DNA from: Methanothrix sp.
GTDB taxonomy: Archaea > Halobacteriota > Methanosarcinia > Methanotrichales > Methanotrichaceae
DNA length: 34,010 nucleotides
Direction: 5' to 3'
Assembly (NCBI GenBank): GCA_025361645.1
Contig: JANYKI010000069.1
Coordinates: forward strand, 1-34,010
The position numbers were made by a program, and so were the translations under genes. The notes under the pieces are model-generated. The model was not told where the DNA came from. It worked only from the letters and a program-made list of their open reading frames with translations, and did no database searches. This document shows, piece after piece, positions 3,312 to 16,146 of the stretch (position 1 is its first letter; the number at the start of each line of letters is the position of its first letter).

Positions 3312-4408
3312 TTACTGTTGGTTGGAGACGATCTTAATATTATTGGCTCCTTTGGAACTTCTGTAGCTAGCAGCCAATTGATCTCCCACACGAATTGCCA
3401 TCTGGTTGACATAATCCTTATTCGGGCAGCATTTACTTATCTGGTTCTTCTTTATCAAGATATTATTCTCAGCCGTTGCGGGATCGGAAGCTATGGCCAG
3501 GGCTTTTTGATTGCCCAATTCCAGAGATTCCTGGTTTTTAGCAGCGCGCACATTTGAATGCAGACCTCATTGCTCTCACTCATAATGGTTAAACCATTGG
3601 GATCAATACCCCATGCTTGGGCCGTATTGCATACCTCTGTGCGGGGTGGGTATTTCAGAACCGTGGATTTACTAAAGGACTTGGTTTCATATGGCCCCAG
3701 CGAGATGCCTTCAATAATAATACCCAATCGACTGTCTACAATTCTAATGCCCACTATGGAGCAGTTGCAGGTATTTTTAATCACATAAGTATATGTGCCA
3801 TTCTGGCCGGACCGGTAACATTCGCACCCGTCAGCATATTTATATATTTTTAATAATTCGCAGTTTACTTTTAGGAGATCTTCATAAATCTCCATGAGAA
3901 TGGCTTGCCTGCGGATCAGATCTTCAAAGCTTGCCAGGAACTCGATCTTATCTTCTTCCGGAGCATCTTGCAGATGGTGCAGAAAACCCTCAAATCCCAG
4001 GAGAAGGGCTGCGTCTCGGTCCAGTAGGTCCTGAAAACTATTCAGGAACTTCTTTTTCTCTCGAATGGGAAAGAGGCAGTATTTCTTCTTCAATTGAGAT
4101 TGGAAATCATAAAGAAGAATGGCCTGGTGCCTCAGCAGCCCTTCCAGATTTTCAGTTATATCTACTCGCTCTTCCAGGCTCAATTCAGGCCAGATTTCTT
4201 TTAATCTGAGTTCAAATTGGGCCAGACGAATAGCTCTTTCTCTGAGCAGGCTCTCATATGCGCTCAGAGAGCTGATGTGCGGTTCAATCGATTGCCGATC
4301 GGCAAAAAAAACGGTGTCATTTAAATCGATCTGGCGAGACTGGTTCACTAATAGAATTTCGCTGGAGTATAATTCGCGAATATCCTCCATCAGCATGTGA
4401 TAGGGCAA
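3312..4408 (-). CDS. Helical-repeat surface-type protein, frameshifted near its C-terminus
   Basis: Not a named family that I recognise. As read directly, the frame starting at TTG 4408 (or ATG 4396/4390) ends at 3491 after 305 residues. Its last residues (CALLKTRNLWNWAIKKPWP) look out of frame. The adjacent frame continues plausibly from GTG 3551 to the stop at 3312 (start RAAKNQESLELGNQKALAI), so the intact protein would be about 365 residues. Residues about 45-195 contain four copies of a ~37-residue helical repeat with core S-[FY]-[EQ]-[DS]-L-[LI]-x-R-x-[AI]-x-L. A cysteine-containing DUF11-like domain follows and ends in SNEVCI, the same word that ends the neighbouring 831-residue protein. 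No signal peptide is visible, which is odd because its relatives look secreted. Confidence 0.6.
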
Positions 4409-4516
4409 GGCCTCCGGCAGGGTATCGGATAGAGTCTCAGACTGGATCTCGAATAGGGAACCGGATAAAGAAGCAATCGGTGAATCAAATGCCAGAACGT
4501 CACCGACTCTTCCAAA
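4409..4516. other. Divergent junction between two repeat-bearing genes
   Basis: Only about 108 bp separate the starts of the two divergent genes, and the stretch is not AT-rich as the other promoters here are. The minus frame stays open upstream of 4408 to a stop at about 4538-4540 without a start codon. The plus frame of the 831-residue gene is closed by TGA at 4481 and TAG at 4430. Both neighbours lack signal peptides. The stretch may be a rearrangement or deletion junction and not a true divergent promoter. Confidence 0.35.
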
Positions 4517-7012
4517 GTGGAATTGGTCATTACCGAGCTACTGGTCGCGAAACACCAGGCAGGAAAGGTGGACGACTGCGGAGCCAATGCTCCCTTCTCC
4601 ATCGAAGTTAGGAATTCAGCCGCTGCTTACGTCTACAATTTGTCCATAAAAGAGATACTCCCTGCAGGCCTAAAGCTCAACGACACACCCATCGTATCAG
4701 GAGCTGTGCCCACATCATTCGACAACAGTAATCCCGCCATTTTGATCTGGTGGTTCAACCAAACCCAGGGAGTTAGCCCTGGGACGAGGATATATATAAA
4801 ATTCAATGCCTCAGTTACGGGAAATTGCAGCTTTAATGGAGGAAACGCAAGAGTGCTGGTGAATTATATTGAGCCATGCGGAAGATTTGGGCCGGAGGTA
4901 GAAAGCCAGATTCCCGTAACAAAATTCAGTCCCAAGATAACAATTACTAAGACGCCCCCAACGACCTATGCAAATTCGGGGGATATAGTGCGCTGGGTTA
5001 TAACTCTGAAAAATGATGGGGATTATGTGGCCAAGAATGTGACCCTTCAGGATATTTTGCCCACGAACACCGTCTGGCACTCTGCTTACCCCCAGAACAA
5101 CAGCGGCATTGGATCAGTATCTAATCCATTGGTCTGGAAACTATCGGATATGCCGGTAGGGCAGACCAAGACCATTCGCCTTAATGCCACAGTTAAGAGC
5201 TGTACCGTTCAAACCACTGACAAAGCTACAGTCTACTGGGCCTGCTGTCCTTCCACAGCTCCTGCCACTGCCAACCTGATCACCAGACCCAGCGGTTCGG
5301 CCAGTCCGAACACGGGGCAGTTGAGTTTGCTGGATACCTGCGGAGGGGACTTCACACTAACCATCGGGAATTCCGGAGCTACAGCCTTAGTTTATAATAT
5401 CTCGGATGTACTGCCTGTAGGATTCATATACAAAAAGAATTCTGCTCGCATCACTAGCAACAACGCCACTCACAACGCGACCATCACCATCTATGAGCCC
5501 AACGACTTCACAGCCATCAATAGGACACTCATCTGGAACTCCACAAATATCGATAAAGTTTATCGCGGTGAGGTTATAACCTTACGGTTCAAGGTTATCA
5601 ACTGCACAGATTGCTGCAAATCATCTACCTCTAGTACGAACACTCTGAGATTCTATTACAGGGACTCCTGTGGAAATCTCTTTTCCACTACGCCAAATAT
5701 CCAGACAGTAAATCCCAAAAAGGGCAACCTCGTCGTGCGAAAGGAGCCTTCTGTGCAGTTTCAGGGACAGGTGAGCTGGACAATTTATATAGATAACAGT
5801 GGTACAAAGACGGCAGAGAACGTGAGCGTTGTGGACATATTGGGAGACGGGTTCTTCGATGTGACTTCCAGCAATGGCACAGTGACTCATAACCAACCGC
5901 TTCCCAACTGGACAACTATTAAATGGACCGGGCAGAAGGTGCCCATGGGAGTCGGCAAATGGTCCGTAGTAGTAAACGCCAACTCCAACGAGACCTGCGG
6001 ACTGACCCATATCAACAACGTCACCGTCCGGGGCACATGCGACACGGGGTGCATCTACAGCAACGAGCGTGCCATAGCTCGAGCCTTATCGCAGGCTACA
6101 TTTAGGCTTGACAGCCTGGAGAGTCTTCTCAGAGGGCAAACTTATACAATATCCAGTTTCGAGAGCCTGCTCAAGAACTCCTCCCTGGACGCCAACGCCA
6201 GCCGAGAGTTTCTTGCCAGCTTCGATGACCTCTCCTGGCGGCAGCAGCTCGGTCTGAAGGATTTCGAAGGACAGGTGTGGTGCAACTGGAACGATCTGGA
6301 CGAGGTGCAGAAGATAAAGTTCACATCCAGCTTCGAGGATCTCTTAAGAAGACAGTCTGAGATCATATCCAGCAATGATGTGCTTCTTATCCGGGGCTAC
6401 TGCAAAATTAATAGCTCAGAGAAGGCCGTCTTCCTGAGCAGTTATGAGGATCGCCTTCACAAAGAGCAGTATCTTCTCAACGGGTTTTCCAAGTGGTTAA
6501 ACAGCCAGAGTGCTCTTAACAACACTGAAAAGCAGACATGGTACAAATTTCTGGCAAGCTATGAGGATCTGATCAGGCGTCAGGCCAGGCTCATCGGCAG
6601 CTTTCAGGAGCTTTTATACTCCAGTTGTCAGGGAACTTTCATGGAAGTGTACAAGAGTACCAACAAGACCGATTACAATGCCAATGCAGGCGAACCCATA
6701 AATTACACGATCATTGTGAATAACACCGGGAGCAAGACTATCGAGAATATAACCATCAATGACTCCATACTGGGAGTGATACAGAGCTCTCCGGGCATCA
6801 CCCTGGCACCCGGGACAAACAAGACCTACTATAAGGTTGTCAGCCATAATTGCAGCTACTGTAGCTCTTGCACCTGCCGCATATGCAATTTTGCCTTAGC
6901 CTGCGCAGATGTGGTCATGGACGCGTCTAACCGAACCCATCTTTGCGTCGCCAGCAATGAGGTCTGCATAAATATCACAGAGCCCAATCTTGCCCCGATT
7001 TATCCGGGATGA
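4517..7012 (+). CDS. DUF11-repeat surface protein with helical SFEDLLRRQ repeats
   Basis: An 831-residue protein, apparently extracellular. Residues about 15-520 are four or more DUF11-like beta-sandwich repeats. Typical words are ITKTPPTTYANSGDIVRWVITLKN, YNISDVLPVGF and VVRKEPSVQFQGQVSWTIYIDN, with regularly placed cysteines and many N-x-S/T sequons. Residues about 525-705 carry four or five copies of a ~37-residue helical repeat (SFESLL, SFDDLSWRQ, SFEDLLRRQ, SYEDRLHKEQ, SYEDLIRRQ). A last DUF11-like domain with CSYCSSCTCRIC follows and ends in SNEVCI. The start is GTG 4517 without a ribosome-binding site, and no signal peptide is present; an in-frame TGA at 4481 prevents extension. The gene is probably 5'-truncated or its true start is lost. 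It converges on the 1962-residue gene. Confidence 0.75.
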   Translation: MELVITELLVAKHQAGKVDDCGANAPFSIEVRNSAAAYVYNLSIKEILPAGLKLNDTPIVSGAVPTSFDNSNPAILIWWFNQTQGVSPGTRIYIKFNASVTGNCSFNGGNARVLVNYIEPCGRFGPEVESQIPVTKFSPKITITKTPPTTYANSGDIVRWVITLKNDGDYVAKNVTLQDILPTNTVWHSAYPQNNSGIGSVSNPLVWKLSDMPVGQTKTIRLNATVKSCTVQTTDKATVYWACCPSTAPATANLITRPSGSASPNTGQLSLLDTCGGDFTLTIGNSGATALVYNISDVLPVGFIYKKNSARITSNNATHNATITIYEPNDFTAINRTLIWNSTNIDKVYRGEVITLRFKVINCTDCCKSSTSSTNTLRFYYRDSCGNLFSTTPNIQTVNPKKGNLVVRKEPSVQFQGQVSWTIYIDNSGTKTAENVSVVDILGDGFFDVTSSNGTVTHNQPLPNWTTIKWTGQKVPMGVGKWSVVVNANSNETCGLTHINNVTVRGTCDTGCIYSNERAIARALSQATFRLDSLESLLRGQTYTISSFESLLKNSSLDANASREFLASFDDLSWRQQLGLKDFEGQVWCNWNDLDEVQKIKFTSSFEDLLRRQSEIISSNDVLLIRGYCKINSSEKAVFLSSYEDRLHKEQYLLNGFSKWLNSQSALNNTEKQTWYKFLASYEDLIRRQARLIGSFQELLYSSCQGTFMEVYKSTNKTDYNANAGEPINYTIIVNNTGSKTIENITINDSILGVIQSSPGITLAPGTNKTYYKVVSHNCSYCSSCTCRICNFALACADVVMDASNRTHLCVASNEVCINITEPNLAPIYPG

Positions 7013-7101: not shown

Positions 7102-10100
7102 TCAAGGCAGATTGTCGTCACCAGTGTTTATGCACGAGGCACAGGATGGCAGAACTACTGCGTTCCCAGGTTCCCCAGTCCCGCAGGTGTAGCAGGGAAC
7201 CCAGTCCTCGCCGTAGATCTGCCCGCTGCAGTTGAGGCCGAAGCACGTCGGCGGCTGCCAATCAGAAGATATGGAAGAAGGCAATGCTCCTCCTTTGCCT
7301 AGATCGATTCGCGCCTCAACATCTGCCGCGGCCCCGTCCGGCCCGTCCACGGAGAAGGCCTCGATGTGGGCCACGTTAACATAGACGCCATCCTTCAGAG
7401 CCCGAGCCCGGTATACGATGGTCCTGCTCTCTCCAGGAGCCAGATCGAGGATTGTCCAGGTGATGAGGTTGGACCTGTTCTCAGAAGGCTCCAGAGATGA
7501 GTTAAGAAGCTGCATGGGCAGGGGTAGCTGGTCCATTAAGAAGGCTACCATGGTGTACTTCTCCCGGTTCTTGAGGGACAGGCTGTACCAGACCACTTTC
7601 GGGTCCAGAGCATCGACTTTGGCGGTCTTGGTAGCGGAGAATTGAGGCGGGCAGCAGGTCAGCCAGTTCAAGCGAACTACGGAGAAGTTCCTGGCCAGCG
7701 TCCAACTCTCACTGTACTTGCCTGCCGCCTCCACCCGGTTGACTAGATTGGATGGCTCCTCGGTGATGTTCAGCCGCAAATCGATGACCACCTTGCTACC
7801 GATGCCCATGGAAAGCAGCGACCAATTGGCGTAGCTTGTCGTCAGCTCTACAGGCCGGAGGGATGAGGTGATATACTCGGTTCCCGTCGGGAAGACGTCC
7901 TTCACATAAACCGGCCCTAAAGCCTGGTTGCCGTTGTTCTCGATGGTGATCCTATAGTCGGCAAAGGTTGTGTTAAGCATATCTACCCGGGCCACCTTAC
8001 TCAAAGAGAGATGCGGTCGGTCGTACTTGGCCACGCCTCCCAGGGTGGTCTTTCTCTGGATATCGAATTGCCCGAGATACGTCTCCTCCTGATCGATATT
8101 ATTATGAGAATTGTCCTTGTAGACCGTCCGGAAATCGGCCTGGCCGGTAAAGCCAGCCTCGGTCACCATCTCGTTTAGGCCTCGGGCAGTTGACTGCAGA
8201 TCCAGGTATGTTGCTGAGGAAAATTGCTCGCTGATCAGGCTGGTGGGAGTCTTGGACCACATGCCCTCATTCCACAATAAGTCACTGGATGTGGAGAAGG
8301 TGGGCGTGTAATTGTAACTGGTCGGCAAGTGAGTGAGGTTGATATCCTTGGCGATGTAGTTGACGACCGTACTGATTCTCTCCTCACTCTGGTACTTGCC
8401 CGTGCCCGACTCGTAAGATTTCTGGCTGTTTCCAATTTTCCTGTTACCGGCCACGTACCCAATACCGCTAACGGATTTTTCATACTCCGCATTCTTGCCG
8501 TATTCATCGAACTTCTCGTTGATCTTGAAGCTGCCCACATAGTCCTCCGAAGCCTCGAAGATCTGGCTGGCGTTCCACGTTCTATTCGCATCAGCATCTT
8601 TCTTGACGAGGCCGATATGACCCACGCCCTCAAAGTCGGTCTCGGTCTTCATTGTGCTGCCGTTCTCGTCCAGCTTCAGGGAACTGTTGCGGTTGATGCG
8701 GTTGGCGTAGGTGTACTCCTCGTTAGTGGAGCCACCGGTGGCGTAATTCTTGGACTTGGCCTTCTCGACCCACTTGGTTTTGTAGTTGATATCCCGATTA
8801 TTGGGCAGAGAGAAAGTGGTTGGCTTATATGTTGCAGTCAGGCCTTTGGTCCACTTAATGGAGCGATTGGAGTTTTGGTATTTTATCACGTCCTCGCTGG
8901 CGTAGTCGCCGCTCCCGTGCTCCTTGAGAGCGACATAGGTCTGGGGCGGGCCGACGTTGACGTCGGCGGAGGCGGTCATGGGTTTTCCATCGATGCATTC
9001 TACTATTTTGCCCTTAATATCCACCATTTTTGCTCTATTTATAAGGATTACTGGCTCTGTACGGACGTCGTTGTGCAAATTAACGAATCCCGTTCCCGTC
9101 ACGCCCTGGCCCATGTCAAAGGTAGTATTGCCGATGTCCTGCGCTACCTGCACCAAAATGATAATGGTTCCATTTTTTTGCCAATCTATTATCCATCTGT
9201 TGTTATTGCCATCATCAACCGGCGTTGGGGACGCAGATACGAAGGACACTCCTCTTGGATAGTCATCCACGATCATATATCCTGGCTCATACCACGTTAT
9301 GTTATATGTCACATAGTCCCCAGGCTTAACAAATTTTGGCGACGCGGTCTTTGTTAGGCAGCGACCAGTGATAATCTTCACCTCTTCCCGGGCAGGCGGC
9401 GAGACCACTTCCAAGCCATCCGGAACCAATCCTGTTGCAACTACTATGTTAATTATTGATGGCTTTGTCATGTCCCGAGCGGTCACTTTATAAATTTTGT
9501 AGTAAGTTAGCTGCTCGCCCGGATCCAGATTAACCGGTTCGTTGAGGATCACTAAACCTAGCTTATCATCATTGAGTGTCAGTGAAACGATCTTGATGCT
9601 GCCGGTGTTTTCCACCGTGAATTTATACTTGATCTCCTCATTAACTTCGGTAACAAACTCACGATCCGCCTCCTTTAAGACTTTTAGACCTAGTACCGGC
9701 TGAGGGGACTGGCAGCTCCATCCCACATTAACACAGGCTCGATTGCTCACCATCGGTCCATCTTGATCACCCGCGCTGCCGTATGCTGTAGCGCAATTCG
9801 TGAGATGTTCCGGCTCTGCCAATCCTGGTGTTCTTCTGTAATCTCGGCTGATTACGTTGCCATAGAAGTCTACTATCATGATCAGGGTGTCTCCTGTGGC
9901 ATAGTACCTTACAGTGTAGGTCCTATAGCCTTTTTCCGGCTTATTGTACTCGATCTTTAGAGTCTCCTTGGTCGGCAAGAAGGTATAGAAGTCCGAGAGC
10001 ACCTCGCCTTTCGTGCCGTATGTTGTGGTCAGGAGGTCGTACTTGACGGGCCTGGTGTACTCAGACAATACCAGGAATCCGGTGGCATTAAGCTGCTCAT

Positions 10101-12990
10101 TCAGAGTCTCCCCTGTCGAGATATTCGTGTAGTTGATGAGTGTGTAGTTCGTCCCAGCAATGCTCTTTGTGCCTGATCCCACAGTTGCTTTGGCCTTATC
10201 GAATGTGTCTCGATGTTTCTTGATGCTTTGCAGCTTGGCCTCCAGCTTGGTCTTATTTCTGGAGAGAGCGTCAATCATCTGCAGCATGTTGACAGGTTCG
10301 CTTCCTGCAGCCATGACATTCAACTTTGTCTCCCCTGCGGTTATGACAGGAGGCGAGACGGTTGAGCTCGAAGCTGCATTGCAGGCTTCTGGACTCAATT
10401 TAACATTGTAAGTGATTGTCCAAGAATCCCCTGGTTGCAGAGAGCCAAGAGGGCCCAGATCAAAGTTCAGCCTGCCGCCTGCAATGGTGTGCTGGATTAA
10501 GATGTCTCCATAATATGCATAGGGAATAAATTCCAGCATTGGACTTAGCTCGTCAACGATTTTGATATCATGGATTTCTGTTTTTCCAATATTCTTCACA
10601 GTGATGGTGAAGGTGGTCTCCATATTCGGAATTAAAGTCTCAACTGTTGTAGTCTTCGTGACCTCTAGTTCGCCAGATTGCGTAAACTTGTTTCCGAAGT
10701 TTACCTGAGTCGATGGAACATCGGTCTGGTCAGACTTAGTTACTGTGACCTGGCCGGTTTCAGAAACCACAACCACGTAAATATTGCCCTCCGGATAGGT
10801 CTGAGTCCAGTCTGACGAAAGAGAAGGCATCTCTGCCAGCGTGTAGGTTCCGGGAGAAATGCTGTTAATACTGTAAGAGCCTAAAGCCGCTGGACCGGCG
10901 GATGTTATCGCGGCCTTGACTATCTCACCATCTTGGTTCTTCAGATTGATCATCCACTCACCAAGGCCCGGCTCGTTTGCATCCCATTCGTTGTTGCCAT
11001 TTTTGTCTTCGAACTTCGTGCCGGAGATGGACCCTACGGCGGGTTCGCACCTCCATCCCACATCAACACAAGCTCTATTGCTCACTACTGGTTCATCTTG
11101 TTCACTAATGTTGCCATATGCTGTGACGCAATTCGTGAGATATTTCGGTACCGCCAATCCGGGAGTCATTCTGTACTCTCGGCTGACTACGTTGCCGTAG
11201 GAGTCGACCGTTATAATCAGGGTGTCTCCAGTGGCATAGTACCTTACTGTGTAGGTTTTATAGCCTTTTTCCGGCTTATTGTACTCTATCTTTAGAGTCT
11301 CTTTGGTCGGCAAGAAGGTATAGAAGTCCGAGAGCACCTCGCCTTTCGTACCATATGTCGTGGTCAGGAGGTCGTACTTGGCGGGCCTGGTGTACTCAGA
11401 CAATACCAGGAATCCGGTGGCATTAAGCTGCTCGTTCAGGGTCTCCCCAGTCGAAATATTCGTATAGTTGCTCCGTGTGTAGTTCGTCCCAGCAATGCTC
11501 TTTGTGCCTGATTTCAGAGTTGTATTGACCTTATCGAATGTGTCTCGATGTTTCTTGATGCTTTCCAGCTTGGACTCCAGCTTGGTCCTATTCCTGGATA
11601 GAGAATCAATAATCTGCAGTATGCTGGTGCTGTCGCTTCCTGCAGCCATGACAGTCAACTTTGTCTCCTCAGCAATTATGATCGGAGGCGAGACGGTTGA
11701 GCTAGAAACTGCATTGCAGGCTTCTGAACTCAATTTCGCATTGTAAGTGATTGTCCAGGAATTCCCTGGTTGCAGAGAGCCGAGAGGGGCGAGATCAAAT
11801 ATCAACTTGCCACCTGTAGTGGAGTGCTGGATTAAGATATCTCCATAATATGCATAGGGAATAAATTCCAGCATTGGACTTAGCTCGTCTACGATTTGGA
11901 TGTCATGGATTTCTGTTTTCCCAATATTCTCCACGGTGATGGTGAAGGTGGTCTCCATATTCGGAATTAAAGTCTCAACTGTTGTAGTCTTCGTGACCTT
12001 TAGTTCGCCTGATAGCGTAAACTTGTTTCCGAAGTCTGCATTTGTAGATGGAACCACAGTCTGGTCAGACTTAGTCACTGTGACCTGGCCGATTTCAGAA
12101 ACCACAACCATGTAAATATTGCCCACCGGATAGGTCTGAGTCCAGTCTGACGAAAGTGATGGCACCTCCTCCAGCGTGTAGGTACCGGGAGAAATGCTGT
12201 TAATACTGTAAGAGCCTAAAGCCGCTGGACCGACGGATGTTGTCGCAGTCTTAGCTATCTCACCGTCTTGGTATTTCAGATTGATTACCCACTCACCGAG
12301 GCCCGGCTCGTTTGTATCCCATTCGTTGTTGCCATTTTTGTCTTCGAACTTCGTACCAGAGATGGACCCTACGGCAGGCTCGCATTTCTGGATAGCGACC
12401 GTCCTGCTGCAATTGCTGGAATATCCGTCCATAGTGGCATTGACAAAGATCGTGGCCCAGTTGCCTGTTCCTGCAGACCAGGTGGCCTTGGAGCTGTCTG
12501 CCGGATCGGCGGTGATGGAGGCACCCGGGCTTTCGCGTATCGACCAGGTATACGTCGTGCCTGAAATGGGGTCTGTGACCAATGCATTGTTTCCGGTTGA
12601 TCTTGCGCAGACAGGCGTATCGGCAATAAATACACAGCTAGGCTTTTGCGAAGGGAGGACGAGAAGCTCCGTCTCATTCTGGCTGGTGCATCCTACTGCG
12701 CCGCTGCTTATCAGAAGGCTGATTATCACCTTTGTAGGCTCAGTCACCAGCGGTGCCGTCCACTGGAAGGAGACAGTCCGGGAGGTCGTAGGGAAACCAT
12801 CCGTTGCTGTCCACAGATAACTATAGCTCTCGCCAACAGGCGGTGTTGGACCAATAAATGTATAGCTTTTTCCTGCCTCATACTGCTTGCCCTCACCTGA
12901 TGAAATGACGACCAAAAATATTATTATTAATATTGCAGCAATATGATTTCTTTTTTTGGAGGAGACACGTGTGGGCATATTGAGATCCAT
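7102..12990 (-). CDS. Giant secreted SdrD_B/DUF11 surface protein (1962 aa) with internal tandem duplication
   Basis: A secreted protein with a basic N-terminus and hydrophobic core IAAILIIIFLVVISSGEG (residues about 17-34). Residues 35-200 hold Ig/PKD-like segments. Two near-identical ~445-residue units follow (about 204-648 and 649-1093). Each begins with a calcium-binding SdrD_B-like domain (GSISGTKFEDKNGNNEWD), then a DUF11 domain, a short helical segment (SRNRTKLESKLESIKKHRDTF) and a Tyr-rich beta region. Residues about 1098-1320 are two further DUF11-like domains. About 1333-1655 is a Tyr/Asn/Ser-rich beta domain that I do not recognise. About 1660-1890 holds two more DUF11 domains. The Cys-rich tail has no membrane anchor or sorting motif. 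ATG 12990 lies 15 bp after the upstream gene, so the two are probably cotranscribed. A role in the cell envelope or sheath is inference. Confidence 0.85.
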   Translation of the reverse strand: MDLNMPTRVSSKKRNHIAAILIIIFLVVISSGEGKQYEAGKSYTFIGPTPPVGESYSYLWTATDGFPTTSRTVSFQWTAPLVTEPTKVIISLLISSGAVGCTSQNETELLVLPSQKPSCVFIADTPVCARSTGNNALVTDPISGTTYTWSIRESPGASITADPADSSKATWSAGTGNWATIFVNATMDGYSSNCSRTVAIQKCEPAVGSISGTKFEDKNGNNEWDTNEPGLGEWVINLKYQDGEIAKTATTSVGPAALGSYSINSISPGTYTLEEVPSLSSDWTQTYPVGNIYMVVVSEIGQVTVTKSDQTVVPSTNADFGNKFTLSGELKVTKTTTVETLIPNMETTFTITVENIGKTEIHDIQIVDELSPMLEFIPYAYYGDILIQHSTTGGKLIFDLAPLGSLQPGNSWTITYNAKLSSEACNAVSSSTVSPPIIIAEETKLTVMAAGSDSTSILQIIDSLSRNRTKLESKLESIKKHRDTFDKVNTTLKSGTKSIAGTNYTRSNYTNISTGETLNEQLNATGFLVLSEYTRPAKYDLLTTTYGTKGEVLSDFYTFLPTKETLKIEYNKPEKGYKTYTVRYYATGDTLIITVDSYGNVVSREYRMTPGLAVPKYLTNCVTAYGNISEQDEPVVSNRACVDVGWRCEPAVGSISGTKFEDKNGNNEWDANEPGLGEWMINLKNQDGEIVKAAITSAGPAALGSYSINSISPGTYTLAEMPSLSSDWTQTYPEGNIYVVVVSETGQVTVTKSDQTDVPSTQVNFGNKFTQSGELEVTKTTTVETLIPNMETTFTITVKNIGKTEIHDIKIVDELSPMLEFIPYAYYGDILIQHTIAGGRLNFDLGPLGSLQPGDSWTITYNVKLSPEACNAASSSTVSPPVITAGETKLNVMAAGSEPVNMLQMIDALSRNKTKLEAKLQSIKKHRDTFDKAKATVGSGTKSIAGTNYTLINYTNISTGETLNEQLNATGFLVLSEYTRPVKYDLLTTTYGTKGEVLSDFYTFLPTKETLKIEYNKPEKGYRTYTVRYYATGDTLIMIVDFYGNVISRDYRRTPGLAEPEHLTNCATAYGSAGDQDGPMVSNRACVNVGWSCQSPQPVLGLKVLKEADREFVTEVNEEIKYKFTVENTGSIKIVSLTLNDDKLGLVILNEPVNLDPGEQLTYYKIYKVTARDMTKPSIINIVVATGLVPDGLEVVSPPAREEVKIITGRCLTKTASPKFVKPGDYVTYNITWYEPGYMIVDDYPRGVSFVSASPTPVDDGNNNRWIIDWQKNGTIIILVQVAQDIGNTTFDMGQGVTGTGFVNLHNDVRTEPVILINRAKMVDIKGKIVECIDGKPMTASADVNVGPPQTYVALKEHGSGDYASEDVIKYQNSNRSIKWTKGLTATYKPTTFSLPNNRDINYKTKWVEKAKSKNYATGGSTNEEYTYANRINRNSSLKLDENGSTMKTETDFEGVGHIGLVKKDADANRTWNASQIFEASEDYVGSFKINEKFDEYGKNAEYEKSVSGIGYVAGNRKIGNSQKSYESGTGKYQSEERISTVVNYIAKDINLTHLPTSYNYTPTFSTSSDLLWNEGMWSKTPTSLISEQFSSATYLDLQSTARGLNEMVTEAGFTGQADFRTVYKDNSHNNIDQEETYLGQFDIQRKTTLGGVAKYDRPHLSLSKVARVDMLNTTFADYRITIENNGNQALGPVYVKDVFPTGTEYITSSLRPVELTTSYANWSLLSMGIGSKVVIDLRLNITEEPSNLVNRVEAAGKYSESWTLARNFSVVRLNWLTCCPPQFSATKTAKVDALDPKVVWYSLSLKNREKYTMVAFLMDQLPLPMQLLNSSLEPSENRSNLITWTILDLAPGESRTIVYRARALKDGVYVNVAHIEAFSVDGPDGAAADVEARIDLGKGGALPSSISSDWQPPTCFGLNCSGQIYGEDWVPCYTCGTGEPGNAVVLPSCASCINTGDDNLP
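9706..12375 (-). repeat. Tandem duplication, two ~1335-bp direct repeats inside the giant gene
   Basis: The landmark GATGGACCCTACGGC occurs at 12361 and again at 11026, a period of 1335 bp (445 codons, in frame). Long stretches, for example 11221-11470 against 9886-10135, differ only at scattered and mostly third-codon positions. By eye, identity there is about nine bases in ten. The copies are about 11041-12375 and 9706-11040. Confidence 0.9.
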
Positions 12991-13005: not shown

Positions 13006-13854
13006 TCAGACTGATTTAATGTCGGCGCGGGGAACATCGACCACCAGGACGTTCATCTGGCGATGATCGGTATACCATACTCGTCCAAATTCATCGACGA
13101 AATTTACCGTCAGCTGCAATAGGTGATAGCCCTCTCCAAAGAGCCCCCAGTTTACATCAATGCTATTATTAGAGGATACCTGGGAGATCTCGGATCCATC
13201 GATACTCCAGCTCGCTTGATATATCGGGATGGATTGACCTGTTATTAGGGGGGTATAGATGGAAGGATTAGCTATGCAGGTTACGTTATCGCCCTGGATT
13301 TGAACCTTAGGTGGATTCAAAGGTATCCAAGCATTTATGGTTGAGGCTCGATAGCACTGCGTAGTCCTTTCGGCGCATTTTTTATTAGTATTACCATTTG
13401 TATCCCAACTTAGTACAAAATTCTTAAGCTCAATCGACTGGCTGCATACATAGGAAAAACTATAGATGTCAAATAGTGATGTGCCGGGAGGAACGACATC
13501 AAGAACGTATGCTCCCTCTTCTGCCCAGAGGGAACGCACAAGCAAATTGTTTATATAAATATCGGCAAGCAATATAAGGGCCCTTCTTTCGGAATTCGCA
13601 TTATTATTTACTTTGATCCAGAGATGCGCAGTAACAGGACTGCCTAAGGTACAGTCTTGCAGGTGATTGCCATGATTATCTCCCAGGTAGACCTCAAGGA
13701 CACTTACGTCTCCTGCCCGGCATTGAAATTTGCAATCAGGCCAGTCTGCAGCAACTACACCATTAAATAAATTTATTAATACCAATATTAATACCAATAC
13801 AGATAGCGTAAATTTAATTCTTTTTGGAATAGCTATGAGATGCATCCGCAGCAT
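13006..13854 (-). CDS. Secreted protein of unknown function, cotranscribed with the giant surface protein
   Basis: A 282-residue protein. The signal peptide is clear: IPKRIKFTLSVLVLILVLINL to about residue 35, cleavage near VVAADWP. The mature part starts with a Cys-containing beta domain (CKFQCRAGDVSVLEVYLGD, then LGSPVTAHLWIKVNNNA) and ends in an Ig/PKD-like segment (YQASWSIDGSEISQVSS, GYHLLQLTVNFVDEFG). I do not recognise a named family. An AGGAG about 11 bases upstream of ATG 13854 supports the start. Its stop is 15 bp from the giant gene, so the two proteins probably act together at the cell surface. The 15-base palindrome at 13871-13885 lies in its leader. Confidence 0.75.
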   Translation of the reverse strand: MLRMHLIAIPKRIKFTLSVLVLILVLINLFNGVVAADWPDCKFQCRAGDVSVLEVYLGDNHGNHLQDCTLGSPVTAHLWIKVNNNANSERRALILLADIYINNLLVRSLWAEEGAYVLDVVPPGTSLFDIYSFSYVCSQSIELKNFVLSWDTNGNTNKKCAERTTQCYRASTINAWIPLNPPKVQIQGDNVTCIANPSIYTPLITGQSIPIYQASWSIDGSEISQVSSNNSIDVNWGLFGEGYHLLQLTVNFVDEFGRVWYTDHRQMNVLVVDVPRADIKSV

Positions 13855-13870
13855 TTAGTCATCCGCTCCT

Positions 13871-13885
13871 GGCAAAATTTTTGCC
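13871..13885. promoter_or_regulatory. Perfect palindrome in the leader of the secreted-protein operon
   Basis: GGCAAAATTTTTGCC has 7-base arms around one centre base, 17 bp upstream of ATG 13854. It could be an operator or a small hairpin at the 5' end of the transcript. No function can be read from the sequence alone. Confidence 0.35.
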
Positions 13886-13913
13886 CACATTAATTTGATC
13901 ACTACTTTGCTTT

Positions 13914-13960
13914 AAAAAAAGGAAGGCCCCCTTCAAGAAGGGTGCCCCTCATTTTCCTTT
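13914..13960 (-). terminator. Hairpin plus T7 terminator
   Basis: Read on the minus strand, AAAGGAAAATGAGGGGCACCC pairs imperfectly with the following GGGGGCCTTCCTTT around a short loop (core CCCTTC/GAAGGG). It is followed immediately by seven T (complement of 13914-13920). It lies just after the stop of the 261-residue secreted protein. It separates that gene from the following operon. Confidence 0.7.
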
Positions 13961-13973
13961 GCCAGAATGACTA

Positions 13974-14759
13974 TCAGAAGGCCTCCGTAATCGTATTCGC
14001 CGGCTTGGCAACGACAGTTATCAGCTTCTGGCATGAGCCCAAGGGAGTCTTGTCGTTCCCCGTCTTGGGGTAATATCCTGTGAATACTATATATTTTCCT
14101 GTTGGCAGATTATGCCAGCTAGTGGTAATCGAGTTCGTATCTGGACCGGGCACCTTATAATTGCCAAATCCACCCCAGGTAACAAGGTTAGCACCGGGGA
14201 ATTCGGCCACTGGGAAGATCCACCAGCGCTGCCGGACCTGTGAAGGGATGCTGCCTGTACTGTAGGTATAACTTGCTTCATCTTCCGTGCAGATGATGGT
14301 CGATGTAGGATTTGACTGCATTGAGCAATCGTCTGGCTTCATTACTTTGAACTTGGTACATGCCTGGTTGATGCATGTATTCGCCTGCACGGCGGTGACA
14401 AATAATTCTATGGAATACCACTCGGCATAACCGGTCTTGGGCACGGTATACCGATATGTGCGTCCGGGTTCCCCTTCAATTTCCAGGGTTTGATCTACTA
14501 TAGTTCCGGCACTATTCTTGGTAATCCATTTATATTTCCAGGTGATTCCTAGCTGGGTCTGTGTTGCATCGGGAGCAGGACCTGAGACCACAATAGTATC
14601 ATCCGGAGCTACATTCTTATTAGAGATGGGACAATTGTCAGAATTGGAATTGTCAACCACCACGTCTGCTATTGCCGTTCCATCTGCCACAATAAATAAC
14701 ATGCATGTCAAAATGGCAAGCGCAATCGTACTTCGATAAGAGGACATATTCTCTATCAC
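13974..14759 (-). CDS. Secreted protein of unknown function with Ig/PKD-like segments
   Basis: A 261-residue protein with signal peptide (STIALAILTCMLFIVADGTAIA, cleavage about residue 32). The mature part has two beta-rich halves: VAPDDTIVVSGPAPDATQ with TWKYKWITKNSAG, and TSTIICTEDEASYTYSTGS with RQRWWIFPVAEFPG. It has several cysteines likely in disulfides (C43, then CINQAC, DDC, IIC). The first ~200 residues of the giant protein show a similar layout (YSYLWTATDG; TYTWSIRESPGASI), so the two may share an Ig-like fold. The start ATG 14759 has AGGTGAT upstream and a good TATA box further up. A hairpin terminator follows, so it is probably a separate transcript. Confidence 0.75.
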   Translation of the reverse strand: MIENMSSYRSTIALAILTCMLFIVADGTAIADVVVDNSNSDNCPISNKNVAPDDTIVVSGPAPDATQTQLGITWKYKWITKNSAGTIVDQTLEIEGEPGRTYRYTVPKTGYAEWYSIELFVTAVQANTCINQACTKFKVMKPDDCSMQSNPTSTIICTEDEASYTYSTGSIPSQVRQRWWIFPVAEFPGANLVTWGGFGNYKVPGPDTNSITTSWHNLPTGKYIVFTGYYPKTGNDKTPLGSCQKLITVVAKPANTITEAF

Positions 14760-14762
14760 CTA

Positions 14763-14817
14763 ATTGGTAAATGCATTCAAGTAATACTTATACTTTACCA
14801 TCAATTATATTTAAACG
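14763..14817 (-). promoter_or_regulatory. Promoter of the 261-residue secreted protein, with spaced inverted half-sites
   Basis: On the minus strand TTTAAATATAAT (about 14806-14817) is the TATA box. Inverted half-sites TGGTAAA (14765-14771) and TTTACCA (14794-14800) flank the expected transcript start. ATTGGTA at 14763-14769 is identical to the arm of the palindrome in front of lrp. Binding by the same regulator is a guess. Confidence 0.4.
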
Positions 14818-14856
14818 GTATTTTACTTAAAAAATTAATAATAATAGTTAATCCCC

Positions 14857-14939
14857 CACCCGGCTTAAGGACTGATCCGCTACCGGTTTCAGTCTTCATG
14901 CTGCAGCCTCGCCTGCCCCACCAGCTCTACTGCCGGGTG
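14857..14939. other. GC-rich structured intergenic element
   Basis: In the ~300-bp gap between two divergent genes, a GC-rich island sits in AT-rich DNA. CACCCGGC (14857-14864) pairs with GCCGGGTG (14932-14939) and encloses a hairpin (GACTGA 14870-14875 with TCAGTC 14889-14894, inner CCG/CGG). A possible second GCTG/CAGC helix also fits. It could be a small RNA, a regulatory leader or a DNA element. The strand is undetermined, and no similarity to a known RNA was recognised. Confidence 0.35.
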
Positions 14940-15063
14940 CGCCACCAGCTTTTAACTGATGTAAATATAAAAATTATTGACCGATATCTATAATTACCAT
15001 GCTGACGTATTACCTCCAAATAGACATATCCATTGATTCCCAGAGAATTAGGGTGATATATAA

Positions 15064-16146
15064 ATGTCATATAAGAAAAAAATGGCCACAATAGGATGCC
15101 TCATAGGCATTTTTCTACTAGTTTCGATTGGATTAGCGCTATCCAAGGAGAGCATCGTCGTTGTTAATTTGATGATTGATGCAGATATCAATCCGGCATC
15201 AACTCCTGAGCAAATAAAGATGGCAGAAGACGCCTTGATCAACCTCACCAATCAGATAGACCCCAAAGGTCTGGGTGCTACTATTTATGTAACCGAGGAT
15301 ATGGTCCAGGCGGACAGGCTGGGAGTAACCTATCAAGGTACTATGAAGAACCATGAACTTGCACTTTATGGTAATAGGACCGATGAGAGGCTCTCCAGTC
15401 TTTCTGCTTTCGATCAAGAGGCTTTATTGACCTCTTCTAAGGATAGGCTTTATAGTTGTTACGTCTGCGGAGGCGAGCATGTGGCCATAAAGGGCTTCCG
15501 GCCTCAAGCATTTGATCAGAACGAGGAAACATTCGGGATTCTGGAGAAGCTGGGGATAATCTATGATGCCGGATTCCAGGCAGGAGTGATCTTTAGGCCC
15601 GGCTACGAGAATGCTACCTGGCCGTATGATATCGAGGGCCATAACCTGTACGCGGTTCCTGTAAGCACCTATCCAATCAACGATGAACGTGTGTATCTTT
15701 ACGATCGTTACCTAAAGGAAGAGAAGAAGCTGAGCGGCACCCAGTGGTACGATCTCCTGGTGAAAAAGTTCGATGAAAGCTCAGAAAACGGAGACCCCAT
15801 GGTGGTAATCTTCAGCAATCTGGTCTCAGGCAGAGGTGATTACCTTGATGCTTACAAGAAATTCATTGATTATGCAGTCTCCAGGCAAGCAGCATTTGTA
15901 ACCACTTTACAGCTTGTTGATATGGCTGCGGCCAGGAAACGAGGGGGTCATATCGGTGCCATAGCAGAGGCAAACGAGAGCCAGCTGTTTGCAAATGCCA
16001 CGGAGGTAGGCGTCATAGCCAATTGTCCCAATTGCGATAAGACCGGAGAAGTGGCAGTTGGATCGATAATTAACGTTACCGTCCAAAAAGGTAATAAATG
16101 TTTGAACTGCATCCAAAATTCTACCAATTCCACACAGAATGCCTAG
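15064..16146 (+). CDS. Secreted polysaccharide deacetylase-like protein, probably catalytically degenerate
   Basis: A 360-residue protein with signal peptide (MATIGCLIGIFLLVSIGLALS). The mature part has the order of the NodB/polysaccharide deacetylase fold: a beta strand with Asp (VVVNLMIDADI), HELALYGNRTDERLSSLS in place of the metal-binding His motif, and GFRPQAFDQNEETFGILEKLGIIYDAG matching the RPPxG-type motif. The usual second His appears replaced (HELALY rather than HExxxH), so hydrolysis of N-acetyl groups is doubtful and glycan binding is possible. Three CxxC pairs (CYVC, CPNC, CLNC) are unusual. The tail is Asn/Ser/Thr-rich with sequons. The start has AGGGTGAT 7 bases upstream, and a TATA box AAATATAAAA lies near 14963. 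It diverges from the surface-protein genes. Confidence 0.65.
   Translation: MSYKKKMATIGCLIGIFLLVSIGLALSKESIVVVNLMIDADINPASTPEQIKMAEDALINLTNQIDPKGLGATIYVTEDMVQADRLGVTYQGTMKNHELALYGNRTDERLSSLSAFDQEALLTSSKDRLYSCYVCGGEHVAIKGFRPQAFDQNEETFGILEKLGIIYDAGFQAGVIFRPGYENATWPYDIEGHNLYAVPVSTYPINDERVYLYDRYLKEEKKLSGTQWYDLLVKKFDESSENGDPMVVIFSNLVSGRGDYLDAYKKFIDYAVSRQAAFVTTLQLVDMAAARKRGGHIGAIAEANESQLFANATEVGVIANCPNCDKTGEVAVGSIINVTVQKGNKCLNCIQNSTNSTQNA

Follow-up and report, generated by a model that had tools for sequence, protein, structure and literature searches.

A predicted helical-bundle repeat domain in CLIPPER-type surface proteins of the Methanotrichaceae

The DNA analyzed here, called the window throughout, is one whole contig (C2; 34,010 bases) of a 2.43-Mb, 141-contig genome of Methanothrix sp. 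It contains two divergent open reading frames (ORFs), encoding 305 amino acids on the minus strand and 831 amino acids on the plus strand, at the coordinates correctly given in an original prediction made from the sequence alone. Both products carry a helical repeat followed by a terminal immunoglobulin (Ig)-like domain, and their features are collected in Table 1. L-numbers denote loci and G-numbers denote the genomes compared, with L031 being the locus in genome G015.

Using a 36-position hidden Markov model (HMM) trained on loci from two other genomes only, we were able to identify the repeat in both proteins. The 831-residue protein scores 91.4 bits (E = 1.7e-29) with five units at residues ~531, 562, 599, 639, and 676, and the 305-residue protein scores 63.3 bits (E = 1e-20) with four to five units at ~48, 80, 117, 152, and, in part, 175. 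The highest score among 1000 shuffled window proteins was 4.7 bits; the repeats thus align far above chance, and the two proteins do share a ~37-residue repeat in four or more copies each, as had been proposed. In register, identity is 39% for units taken from different positions and 47% for units that occupy one position in different proteins, compared to 8% in random register. The proposed core, S-F/Y-E-D-L-L-x-R-Q, is recovered in the consensus FLxSFEDLLRRQAxLLxSFExLLK (F or Y after the first S), which contains a 14-residue internal echo (SFEDLLR ... SFExLLK). A spacing of 3-4 residues separates the hydrophobic positions (-3/-2, 1, 4/5, 11/12, 15, and 18/19), a pattern typical of bundled helices.

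AlphaFold models of both window proteins, built from 16-row alignments, predict a common fold. The 305-residue model (mean predicted local distance difference test score, pLDDT, 88.7) has helices at residues 2-30, 38-75, 78-112, 115-144, and 151-179, then nine strands, and a 332-residue C-terminal piece of the 831-residue protein (mean pLDDT 79.3) has the same layout, with residues 520-710, the region singled out earlier for fold prediction, modeled as five long helices leading into an Ig-like sandwich. Since five successive long helices are seen, the core and second helix that the original prediction placed within each repeat are better described as a single continuous helix, and each unit is modeled as one long amphipathic helix of ~30-37 residues. 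From helix order and amphipathicity, rather than from coordinates, we read the helices as packed in an antiparallel up-and-down bundle.

The repeat region matched no Pfam, NCBIfam, or PHROG family in the window proteins or their relatives. When 16 repeat members were compared with Pfam up to E = 1, no family fell consistently over the repeats, TPR, HEAT, spectrin, and coiled-coil families included; matches to Slx4, GCIP_C, and Arg_decarbox_C were found in only 1-3 of the 16 members each and were taken as chance. A sequence search of solved structures gave no relative (the best match was a designed coiled coil at E = 0.49, with viral NS1 chains at E of at least 1.5). The earlier view that the repeat has no named family therefore stands, and its profile matches no described domain in the family libraries searched; we also found no description of the repeat or its proteins in the open-access literature. 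Foldseek searches with the whole models, bundle and Ig-like domain together, gave best matches with a query template modeling (TM) score of about 0.2. The top matches were STAT cores, which have the same order of a bundle followed by an Ig-like sandwich. However, order is the only likeness to these eukaryotic transcription factors (root-mean-square deviation >20 A), and a STAT-like fold was rejected on the TM-score of 0.2.

The terminal Ig-like domain closes with SNEVCI in both window proteins, as had been noted. It had been called DUF11-like; its best Pfam match in the 831-residue protein is DUF7507, which is close to DUF11 (47.4 bits, cut-off 27), and in the 305-residue protein DUF7507 scores 19.3 bits, below the cut-off. 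DUF11 is itself matched in the 831-residue protein with 102.5 bits (cut-off 24.6). These two families were named CLIPPER (DUF11) and CLIPPER_2 (DUF7507) in a 2025 survey of isopeptide bonds, which gives Lys72-Asp112-Asn152 as the reference triad of DUF7507 (PMC12617251). The corresponding Lys, Asp, and Asn columns of the end domain are invariant in 16 of 16 aligned members (residues in Table 1), and their spacing resembles that of the reference. Because this triad is conserved, the end domain is predicted to carry an intramolecular isopeptide bond.

The two ORFs are incomplete in the window. L031, which has ~90% DNA identity to the window over the common parts, contains a 1820-residue gene whose C-terminal part corresponds to the 831-residue ORF, a 376-residue gene, and a divergent 428-residue gene corresponding to the 305-residue ORF. 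The window up to 4486 aligns to L031 position 13632 and continues from 4489 at L031 position 8906; the ~4.7 kb of L031 between these points is missing from the window and from the remaining assembly, and the junction itself shows no repeat beyond a few bases. Because this part of the cassette is absent, both ORFs lack a start and a signal peptide and the middle gene is gone. Compared with its relatives, the 305-residue ORF is thereby missing a start codon, a signal peptide, and the initial ~66 codons, while the intact ~1820- and ~428-residue relatives have N-terminal signal peptides, as judged by hydropathy, and flank the third repeat gene. Additionally, the minus-strand gene is frameshifted toward its 3′ end, near 3545, and the homologous tail carries on in another frame to 3315. 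The description of the pair as two divergent surface-type proteins was right as to type, but the ORFs are 5′-truncated remnants of ~1820- and ~428-residue genes.

The window locus is thus broken or misassembled, with a real deletion and an assembly fault giving the same picture. The clean junction and the 4.7 kb found nowhere in the assembly, the lack of a signal peptide in either ORF, and the additional frameshift make it probable that the locus is a decayed remnant, in which two pseudogene halves were joined head to head by a deletion and yield no functional product. However, misassembly or sequencing error in a metagenome bin would look identical, and the codons beyond the frameshift are still intact. 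Decay of this copy is compatible with the explanation of the bundle domain given below, which concerns the protein family.

The tail that is out of frame in the window is homologous, in the 428-type proteins, to ~150-residue secreted proteins found elsewhere in Methanothrix-type genomes, and it is possibly beta-rich or amyloid-like. These small proteins, with GNQ...NNIEIKKNQ repeats, have the C-terminal tail in common with the 428-type proteins but lack the helical repeats and the Ig-like domain, and the one that was tested matched no Pfam or NCBIfam family. A ~150-residue protein with this tail is also present in G001, a 3.0-Mb genome in two contigs.

Table 1. Features of the repeat locus and its neighbor in the window.
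Feature	Position	Strand	Basis
Out-of-frame, conserved 71-residue C-tail of minus-strand gene with two G[ND]Q-A...NNI-I--NQ units	3315..3527	-	
305-residue ORF: five helices (four good repeat units) and C-terminal Ig-like CLIPPER_2-type domain	3491..4408	-	
One-base deletion relative to the relative's gene; frame shifts after SNEVCIQMCA	3545 (near)	-	
Ig-like C-terminal domain of 305-residue protein (DUF7507-like), triad K190/D225/N261, SNEVCI end	3551..3853	-	
Repeat helix 4 of 305-residue protein, residues 151-179; best conserved unit	3872..3958	-	HMM + AlphaFold
Repeat helix 3 of 305-residue protein, residues 115-144	3977..4066	-	HMM + AlphaFold
Repeat helix 2 of 305-residue protein, residues 78-112	4073..4177	-	HMM + AlphaFold
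Repeat helix 1 of 305-residue protein, residues 38-75	4184..4297	-	HMM + AlphaFold
Deletion junction	4486..4489	no strand	alignment to L031
831-residue ORF, C-terminal half of a ~1820-residue protein, without own signal peptide: stalk of DUF11/CLIPPER type, then helical bundle and CLIPPER_2-like end domain	4517..7012	+	
Repeat helix 1 of 831-residue protein, residues 517-553	6065..6175	+	HMM + AlphaFold
Repeat helix 2 of 831-residue protein, residues 559-589	6191..6283	+	HMM + AlphaFold
Repeat helix 3 of 831-residue protein, residues 596-628, short model break near 620	6302..6400	+	HMM + AlphaFold
Repeat helix 4 of 831-residue protein, residues 633-666	6413..6514	+	HMM + AlphaFold
Repeat helix 5 of 831-residue protein, residues 669-701; best conserved unit	6521..6619	+	HMM + AlphaFold
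Ig-like C-terminal domain of 831-residue protein, Cys-rich insert, predicted isopeptide triad K713/D749/N791	6641..6982	+	
1962-residue DUF11/SdrD_B surface protein, cassette neighbor, no repeat copy	7102..12990	-	

The cassette of a giant gene, a ~376-residue gene, and a divergent ~428-residue gene recurs in L031, L032, L033 (where the giant gene is cut by the contig end), and L069 (where the neighboring genes are different). The 1962-residue DUF11/SdrD_B protein adjoins the cassette also in L031 and L032, that is, in three genomes with the window, and contains an internally duplicated block of ~440 residues. Beyond it in the window, three ORFs of 282, 261, and 360 residues (13006-16146) have no Pfam match at 1e-5.

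Three domain orders are observed among repeat proteins. The signal is followed by the bundle, CLIPPER_2, and a tail in the 376-, 428-, and 488-type proteins, by CLIPPER and the bundle in G011 proteins of 378, 390, and 413 residues, and by several CLIPPER domains, the bundle, and CLIPPER_2 in the ~1820-residue proteins. The variable module order suggests that the bundle behaves as a separate domain. Intact relatives in L031-L033 have an N-terminal hydrophobic signal segment, identified by hydropathy only, and no C-terminal hydrophobic segment or membrane helix was found in the cassette proteins checked by hydropathy. The surface-type assignment of the original prediction is supported. No adhesion or sorting domain was found in Pfam or NCBIfam for the window proteins or relatives.

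The highest repeat-protein copy number we observed is in L034/L074 (G011 contig C100), where six repeat proteins with the least degenerate repeats surround a 1843-residue DUF11-like protein. A second shared surface-protein C-tail, ...GCD-IDC, is common to a 488-residue repeat protein (L074:6973-7629), whose tail region matched no Pfam or NCBIfam family, and to a 1686-residue DUF11/SdrD_B/GEVED protein on contig C79 of the window's own genome (L128:11804-16861).

In our searches the repeat is restricted to the family. With the 36-position profile we found it in 12 of 50 Methanotrichaceae genomes, representing 7 of 11 genera, two of the positives being weak (G030 and G041); outside the family, neither the class (238 genomes) nor the phylum sample (393 genomes) gave a match to this profile. 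The picture was concordant with a 144-position domain profile, which gave two additional marginal matches, in G125, from another family of the class (3.7e-4), and G038 (6e-4). This search of archaeal genomes, which the original prediction had proposed, thus confines the repeat to the Methanotrichaceae save for one marginal match. A DNA-pattern scan of 84,980 species genomes, which detects close relatives only, gave confirmed loci labeled Methanothrix, Methanosaeta, Methanotrichaceae, and, once, Methanosarcinales. No relative was found in either of two viral-contig scans; an archaeal-virus protein, A0A8B0LT15, gave a fold match over 88 columns at 30% identity. Where the repeats are missing (G001, G012, and G024), the place next to CorA and/or the Lrp-type regulator is taken by other genes, and the cassette is therefore accessory. 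The absences are soft, as some genomes are incomplete.

The cassette genes are under purifying selection. The ratio of nonsynonymous to synonymous substitution rates (dN/dS) for the three whole genes is 0.10-0.17 between G015 and G021, and a comparison of the window with L031 gives 0.11 in the bundle and 0.17 over the DUF11 part. Divergence from L031 is uneven, with a dS of 0.60 in the DUF11 part and 0.12-0.14 in the bundle and end domain, and identities of 83% in the DUF11 part and 96% in the bundle. At the DNA level, identity to L031 is 72-84% at 4489-5688, 66-82% at 8989-9888, and ~95% over much of the rest. This mosaic in the surface genes is consistent with exchange of stalk segments, or may suggest rapid divergence.

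We lean toward the reading that the bundle of the Methanotrichaceae is a rigid joint or docking module of CLIPPER-type surface fiber proteins. Four or five helices of ~37 residues would form an up-and-down bundle. It is usually linked to Ig-like CLIPPER (DUF11/DUF7507) domains, whose predicted internal isopeptide bonds would lock them. Intact loci encode the long fiber protein (~1820 residues), with a CLIPPER stalk and the bundle near its C-terminal end, together with short secreted proteins (two or three), each of which is little beyond a bundle, one CLIPPER_2-like domain, and a tail. At one end of the fiber, the bundle may then serve as a stiff joint resistant to proteases and dock to the bundles of the short partners, through which the fiber would be tied to the extracellular matrix or the sheath, with the 428-type tail as a possible anchor for the complex. 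Because the short co-encoded proteins consist largely of the bundle, homotypic or heterotypic bundle pairing would most simply account for the conservation of the gene set. The phrase helical spacer or assembly module of the envelope, used in the original prediction, remains the best category, although its assembly part, the docking and anchoring, is something we infer. Some observations weigh against this reading. The repeat is present in only 6 of 26 genomes of the genus, and the module, being absent from most of them, is not essential to the sheath; a relative, L070/L133, has a homologous giant protein without repeats in the part seen; and the model of the 831-residue protein is only moderately confident (predicted TM-score 0.68).

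Alternatively, the bundle could be a passive rigid spacer that sits between other surface domains and binds nothing, and the short proteins could be unconnected leftovers of duplicated genes. Spacers built of tandem repeats typically vary in how many units they have and how long the linkers are, and the module is found in several domain orders. However, the bundle makes up a large share of the mature 376- and 428-type proteins, leaving little to separate; the polar S, E, D, R, R, and Q are nearly as conserved as the hydrophobic positions, more than a spacer needs; and the pairing of giant and short genes is conserved, so that we consider a passive role unlikely. Least probable is that the bundle forms the tip of a fibrillar adhesin and there adheres or binds a ligand, in contact with partner bacteria, other filaments, or a surface. 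CLIPPER domains do build fibrillar adhesin stalks (PMC12617251), and the patchy accessory distribution and strongly divergent stalk blocks resemble those of adhesins, but the bundle is among the better conserved parts, whereas diversification is usual for binding tips; it is followed distally by a CLIPPER_2-like domain; and no adhesive-domain family was matched.

The known systems closest to the window proteins include two kinds of surface protein. Stalks of fibrillar adhesins are formed by DUF11-type domains (PMC12617251), and the window proteins resemble these CLIPPER/CLIPPER_2 proteins in length, tandem Ig-like domains, and the Lys-Asp-Asn triad of the end domain, and, judged by the hydrophobic N-termini of intact relatives, in secretion. 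They differ in adding a helical-bundle domain without a family and in having no known adhesion or sorting domain detected. The sheath (SH) proteins of the archaea Methanothrix and Methanospirillum, whose cap domains may be Ig-like or helical (PMC11576556), have organisms and extracellular location in common with the window proteins. However, SH proteins have a twelve-strand amyloid-like core of two six-stranded sheets, whereas the modeled window parts are long helices and an Ig-like sandwich, and by this predicted fold (AlphaFold, for the 305-residue protein and the 332-residue piece) they are not SH proteins. The window proteins would function like the CLIPPER-type surface fiber proteins and belong with them, and what is new is a helical domain outside the family libraries searched. 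Extending the docking reading, we tentatively envisage a dedicated system, itself doubtful in this full form, in which a bundle invented by the Methanotrichaceae would join a giant isopeptide-clamped fiber to a small set (two or three) of short bundle proteins. One of these, through the tail common to small secreted proteins, would fasten the complex in the matrix or sheath, and the whole would be an accessory apparatus of the filament surface.

The partner domains of archaeal DUF11 proteins are rarely recognized and may not resemble known families (2025 survey, PMC12617251). The helical bundle is a concrete, recurrent example of such a partner domain, with a predicted fold, and the ~376-residue protein is small enough for direct tests. 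Among the acetate-using methanogens of digesters and wetlands the Methanotrichaceae have a major place, and what makes up their surface bears on granulation and partner contact.

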